Positions 23,011 through 23,169 of a stretch of 34,639 bases of DNA are shown piece after piece. Below the pieces are notes generated by a model, which saw nothing but the letters and a program-made list of their open reading frames with translations, had not been told where the DNA came from and did not search any database. The stretch is from Candidatus Kaiserbacteria bacterium RIFCSPHIGHO2_01_FULL_55_37 (GTDB lineage: Bacteria > Patescibacteriota > Minisyncoccia > Phycocordibacterales > UBA2100). Position numbers and translations under genes: made by a program. The stretch's first letter is position 1; each line of letters opens with the position of its first letter. The DNA lies in NCBI GenBank assembly GCA_001781175.1, contig MFKY01000036.1:1-34639 (forward strand), read 5' to 3'.

Positions 23011-23169
23011 TTACTTTCTCGCATTTGAAATTATTAGTATAGCCACGAATGATGCGACGCCTCCCACAAGAGCCGCCTCCTGATACGAACCAATACCTGC
23101 AACAGCGCCGTACGCGAACACGAGAGCGCCGGCAAGTACTGCGATGAGGCTTCTGTTCGAATAGTTCAT
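23011..23169 (-). CDS. 52-aa hydrophobic small protein between atpG and atpD (not in supplied ORF track)
   Basis: Manual translation: [52 protein letters not shown]; stop is immediately before the atpD ATG (TAATATG). Confidence 0.65.

Follow-up and report, generated by a model that had tools for sequence, protein, structure and literature searches.

A candidate lineage-specific membrane microprotein gene at the putative ancestral atpD start in an atp operon

Position and predicted product of the smORF

In the window (the whole stretch of DNA analysed, 34,639 nt from a 0.86-Mb draft genome, G000), the ATP synthase genes are found on the minus strand in the order atpB-E-F-H-A-G-smORF-D-C, with a small open reading frame (smORF) between the genes for the gamma and beta subunits of F1. 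This raises the question of whether the smORF is a gene and, if so, whether it belongs to the ATP synthase or occupies this position for another reason. A preliminary description reported a 52-codon membrane microprotein abutting atpD, and both its position and its length were confirmed (Table 1). The neighbouring AtpG and AtpD were identified by Pfam/NCBIfam profiles. A single nucleotide separates the smORF stop from the atpD ATG (TAA-T-ATG), and atpD has an alternative in-frame ATG at 23024.

Table 1. Coordinates of the features discussed, in window positions
Feature	Position	Strand	Description
smORF	23011..23169	-	52 codons (52 aa), ATG start; predicted two-helix membrane hairpin
atpG (F1 gamma)	23206..24144	-	PF00231; upstream border of the cargo site
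atpD (F1 beta)	21612..23009	-	TIGR01039; downstream border of the cargo site
atpC (epsilon)	21328-21582	-	84 aa
-10 box TATAAT	23181..23186	-	17 nt before smORF ATG; identical string and spacing before relatives' atpD
-10-like box TATACT	23036..23041	-	inside smORF 3' end
AATATGA, 7-bp direct repeat, copy 1	23166..23172	-	at smORF start
AATATGA, 7-bp direct repeat, copy 2	23006..23012	-	at atpD start
Hairpin element (about 107 nt), one copy	26687-26792	-	atpE-atpF spacer

A complete ATG-initiated frame of at least 52 aa arose in 273 of 20,000 Markov sequences with the composition of the gap and a length of 196 nt (1.4%). The product contains two transmembrane (TM) segments (KD19 2.32 and 2.08), a pattern seen in one of 393 out-of-frame ORFs of 45–80 aa and in none of 5,000 stop-free shuffles. 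Hydropathy and the AlphaFold model, which was made from the single sequence, both give two hydrophobic helices; the model is a helical hairpin (residues 3–24 and 29–51) with a mean pLDDT of 79, and the product would be placed in the membrane. Chance is a poor, very unlikely explanation of the smORF and its hairpin. Concerning codon usage, the overall score is compatible with real genes: 32% of 52-codon segments taken from genes fall below it, and 7.5% of null ORFs equal or exceed it. The choice among synonymous codons, in contrast, does not resemble that of genes, and GC3 is low, at 0.50 (vs 0.63 ± 0.06). Judged from its sequence, the smORF is probably a real, translated gene.

Distribution of the smORF across genomes

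No match to the smORF was found in Pfam or NCBIfam, and tblastn searches of 70 family, 397 order and 382 phylum genomes returned no convincing relative; marginal order-level matches (E about 0.01, inside frames of 133–354 aa) were judged to be due to chance. Viral contigs and plasmids contain no homologue, and a Foldseek search of the PDB with the hairpin gave nothing significant. At the locus, the gap could be read in 62 further family genomes, and in each it is either empty or filled with something else. The closest comparison is with G032, a Candidatus Kaiserbacteria MAG which is the nearest named relative of G000 and its sister in the AtpD+AtpG tree (AtpG 91%); its gap has an unrelated 119-aa ORF in place of the smORF. 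The preliminary description had named lack of conservation of the frame in the atpG-atpD gap of relatives as the finding that would refute it; the frame is absent from the gap of every relative compared, including the sister, and a conserved atp-operon gene was rejected on this ground. Across the genomes sampled, the smORF appears as a species-level orphan which no relative has. What stands of the microprotein as first described is a two-helix membrane protein, probably coding, in the atpG-atpD gap and abutting atpD; a conserved factor linked to the ATP synthase does not. A literature search found no paper describing small genes at the atpG-atpD junction, and none dealing with the atp operons of Kaiserbacteria.

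The atpG-atpD junction as a cargo site

The corresponding gaps of the relatives were taken from loci L003–L102. Within the family, no other junction of the operon varies as much as atpG-atpD, whose median is 538 bp vs 5–118 bp elsewhere: of the 63 genomes, 17 have a gap of 24–99 bp and 46 one of 196–1899 bp. The atpA-atpG and atpB-atpE junctions are weaker variable sites. The gaps contain mostly co-directional genes, which change between genomes: a Ham1-type pyrophosphatase is found in 20 of 63, a NUDIX protein in 21 and at least one of the two in 30. The rest of the cargo is made up of small orphan proteins, alongside a few that are PemK/MazF-like, 23S-rRNA-IVP-like or CYTH. Outside the family, 39 gaps from other families of the order were compared; six of them reach at least 150 bp, and none contains Ham1 or NUDIX. 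Also, in G025 and G049 (L036, L075, L076) no atpG was found within about 7–18 kb upstream of atpD, and the operon appears to be split at this junction.

These comparisons present the junction as a variable cargo site at the level of the family and not as the home of a conserved part of the ATP synthase, which would explain why the smORF is missing from the relatives. Some cargo consists of membrane proteins (3–4 TM helices just before atpD in G052 and G053; a small TM protein in the gap of G057), and the smORF could be what is left of a larger membrane cargo gene that has decayed. We consider this highly improbable: it has no detectable similarity to any other gap protein (best E about 2.4), and it possesses its own start, stop and promoter.

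Promoter and start signals

We surveyed start signals in 312 kb of G000 (the window and L106–L125). A TATAAT-type box is located 10–19 nt before the ATG in 84 of 187 genes vs 14 of 186 controls, with a peak at -12, and few genes (11 of 227) have a Shine–Dalgarno (SD) motif. Since such boxes are common and SD motifs rare, the TATAAT before the smORF (10.5 bits, position -17) is a credible start signal. There is no clear SD before the smORF or atpD, and the smORF has the sequence features of leaderless genes, i.e. a -10 box about 10–17 nt before the ATG and no SD. Given the position of the box, a leader of about 5 nt is expected instead of a strictly leaderless transcript, and translation is probably leaderless or from such a short leader. 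A literature search on leaderless-type starts in Parcubacteria/Patescibacteria found no paper.

The same signal is found in many relatives directly at atpD, where TATAATCC(T/C)CTCAC.ATATG or a similar string places the box 17 nt before the ATG. The smORF leader agrees with the atpD leaders of G051 and G048 at 22 and 21 of 26 positions, respectively, and with the atpD leader of its own genome at six of 26. A DNA search that used the entire gap as query picked up the atpD leaders of G048 and G036 independently. The leader of the sister G032 is less similar (16 of 26), so the ancestral site is deduced from more distant relatives. As the smORF leader is the string which relatives have at atpD, the smORF would begin where atpD once started, and would lie between the ancestral atpD promoter and atpD.

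The two AATATGA copies, 160 bp apart, bound a 160-bp unit; they are a possible target-site duplication but in part reflect the context of the atpD start. The 13 codons ahead of the smORF, if translated in the NUDIX frame, give a sequence (..YNPLTI*) colinear with that of relatives. A scar of NUDIX loss is suggestive only, because the TATAATCC promoter string by itself accounts for YNPL.

The second box, TATACT, reaches 9.3 bits when scored with the -10 matrix derived from G000 itself and is located 17 nt before the ATG at 23024 and 32 nt before that at 23009. As it precedes an in-frame upstream ATG, atpD may have its own start, and the box probably re-supplies atpD. The translational coupling which the preliminary description read from the adjoining stop and start is possible but not required. 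Coupling is central to a further reading, in which the smORF is a regulatory leader ORF whose translation tunes atpD and sets the output of the beta subunit. The stop one base before the atpD ATG and the lack of a clear SD before either gene are in its favour, but in relatives the same promoter appears to drive atpD directly, with no such ORF, a leader needs no hydrophobic hairpin, and a second promoter-like box is present; we regard this role as quite improbable.

The second box also bears on whether the insert matters as DNA or RNA, that is, as a promoter-bearing spacer which gives atpD a new -10 box, its frame being incidental or decaying. The strength of a box inside the ORF, the overlap of the box with a rare codon (CTA, used for 4% of leucines) and a low synonymous score, and the lack of a homologue would all fit. 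A two-TM hairpin ending at atpD is, however, very unlikely by chance, and the frame opens at the position of the ancestral atpD start, with a perfect -10 box ahead of it. A spacer with an incidental frame is unlikely, if still worth keeping in mind.

Relation to the ATP synthase

The remark in the preliminary description that AtpI/AtpZ-like factors normally sit upstream of atpB needs correction for these genomes: in profile searches, AtpZ (PF09527) and AtpI (PF03899) are absent from G000 and from nearly all of the family. The smORF itself matches neither the ATPase_gene1 (AtpZ) nor the ATP-synt_I (AtpI) profile, and it does not occupy their place upstream of atpB. It was also rejected as a c subunit, with no alignment at E<=100 and with E31, at the start of helix 2 (29–51), as the only acidic residue there.

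An accessory or assembly factor of the F1Fo ATPase, replacing AtpI/AtpZ in this lineage, would suit the position inside the atp operon, the two-helix hairpin (as small assembly factors have) and the missing AtpI and AtpZ. Against it, relatives with the same ATPase lack the smORF and nearly all of them lack AtpI/AtpZ too; it has no similarity to AtpI/AtpZ or the c subunit, and nothing else carried at the site has an evident ATP synthase link. We hold this to be improbable. Nothing shows the smORF to be a part of the ATP synthase, and such a reading is weak because the frame is not conserved, the relatives have the same enzyme without it, and AtpI/AtpZ are missing regardless.

The epsilon subunit encoded by atpC has a Pfam match to the beta-sandwich domain only, so its C-terminal helical (inhibitory) domain seems to be absent. 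A newborn two-helix microprotein which, after takeover of the atpD promoter, acts on the F1Fo ATPase (in assembly, coupling or inhibition) in a lineage without AtpI/AtpZ and with such an epsilon would be a long shot.

Three genomes (G057, G023 and G050; L100, L101 and L102) contain a second, divergent F-type ATPase operon, whose AtpD is 41–46% identical and whose atpG and atpD overlap by 4 nt. An AtpZ match is found on the contig of this operon in G023 and a sub-threshold one in G057.

A dispersed hairpin element in the atpE-atpF spacer

As a side discovery of this analysis, the atpE-atpF spacer was found to contain a strongly covarying, dispersed hairpin element. Among 17 spacer sequences, compensatory changes are seen in 21 of 27 pairs, which none of 500 shuffles reaches; the structure also holds on 24 dispersed copies, in an alignment that was fitted to the model. 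Rfam gave no match in the operon region. The element is present in 47 of 67 family genomes and, in an order-wide sample, in 41 of 117, with up to 28 matches per genome (further copies: loci L202–L221). Many copies lie a few bases past a stop codon, in either orientation, and the spacer copy of G017 is reversed. In several copies the arms extend into copy-specific complementary flanks. The element resembles, in habit, REP/BIME-type intergenic palindromes, and it is probably the more novel object of the window than the smORF.

Proposed origin of the smORF

The explanation which we favour, and consider moderately probable, is that the smORF is a young, lineage-specific membrane microprotein gene that lies within an atp-operon cargo site, at the point where atpD originally began, and has captured the atpD promoter. 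A unit of about 160 bp carrying the smORF would have inserted exactly at the ancestral atpD start codon and taken over the old atpD promoter. The smORF would be made as a two-helix membrane hairpin, leaderless or with a leader of about 5 nt, and atpD would now be served by the new -10 box in the smORF 3' end and/or by termination-reinitiation over TAATATG. The function of such a gene would be accessory and not essential for the ATP synthase.

The setting of the smORF is more telling than the microprotein. In one CPR family, Ham1 and NUDIX (nucleotide-pool cleaning) and small orphan genes come and go beside the atpD promoter, which offers a clean comparative system for new small genes capturing an existing promoter, and a caution that position in an operon does not equal function in these genomes.

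Comparison with known systems

The smORF resembles AtpI (PF03899) and AtpZ (PF09527) in that its product is small and hydrophobic with at least two TM helices and is encoded within an atp operon; it differs in the lack of a profile match, in its place between atpG and atpD instead of before atpB, and in its lack of conservation. With AtpE (c subunit, PF00137) it shares the two-helix hairpin and a similar size, but it does not align, has no acidic ion-binding residue within helix 2, and its charge pattern, unlike that of AtpE, suggests that both ends are inside. In leaderless genes a TANNNT box is located about 12 nt before the start (PMC3160421), and such genes are also described in Deinococcus-Thermus (PMC12340547). 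The close -10 box and the lack of an SD, found genome-wide in G000, are common to both; the smORF box at -17 differs, with a leader of about 5 nt expected. The smORF shares with the orphan small membrane proteins of bacteria its short, hydrophobic product and species-level distribution, and differs from them in that it sits where a core ATP-synthase gene would have its promoter and start.
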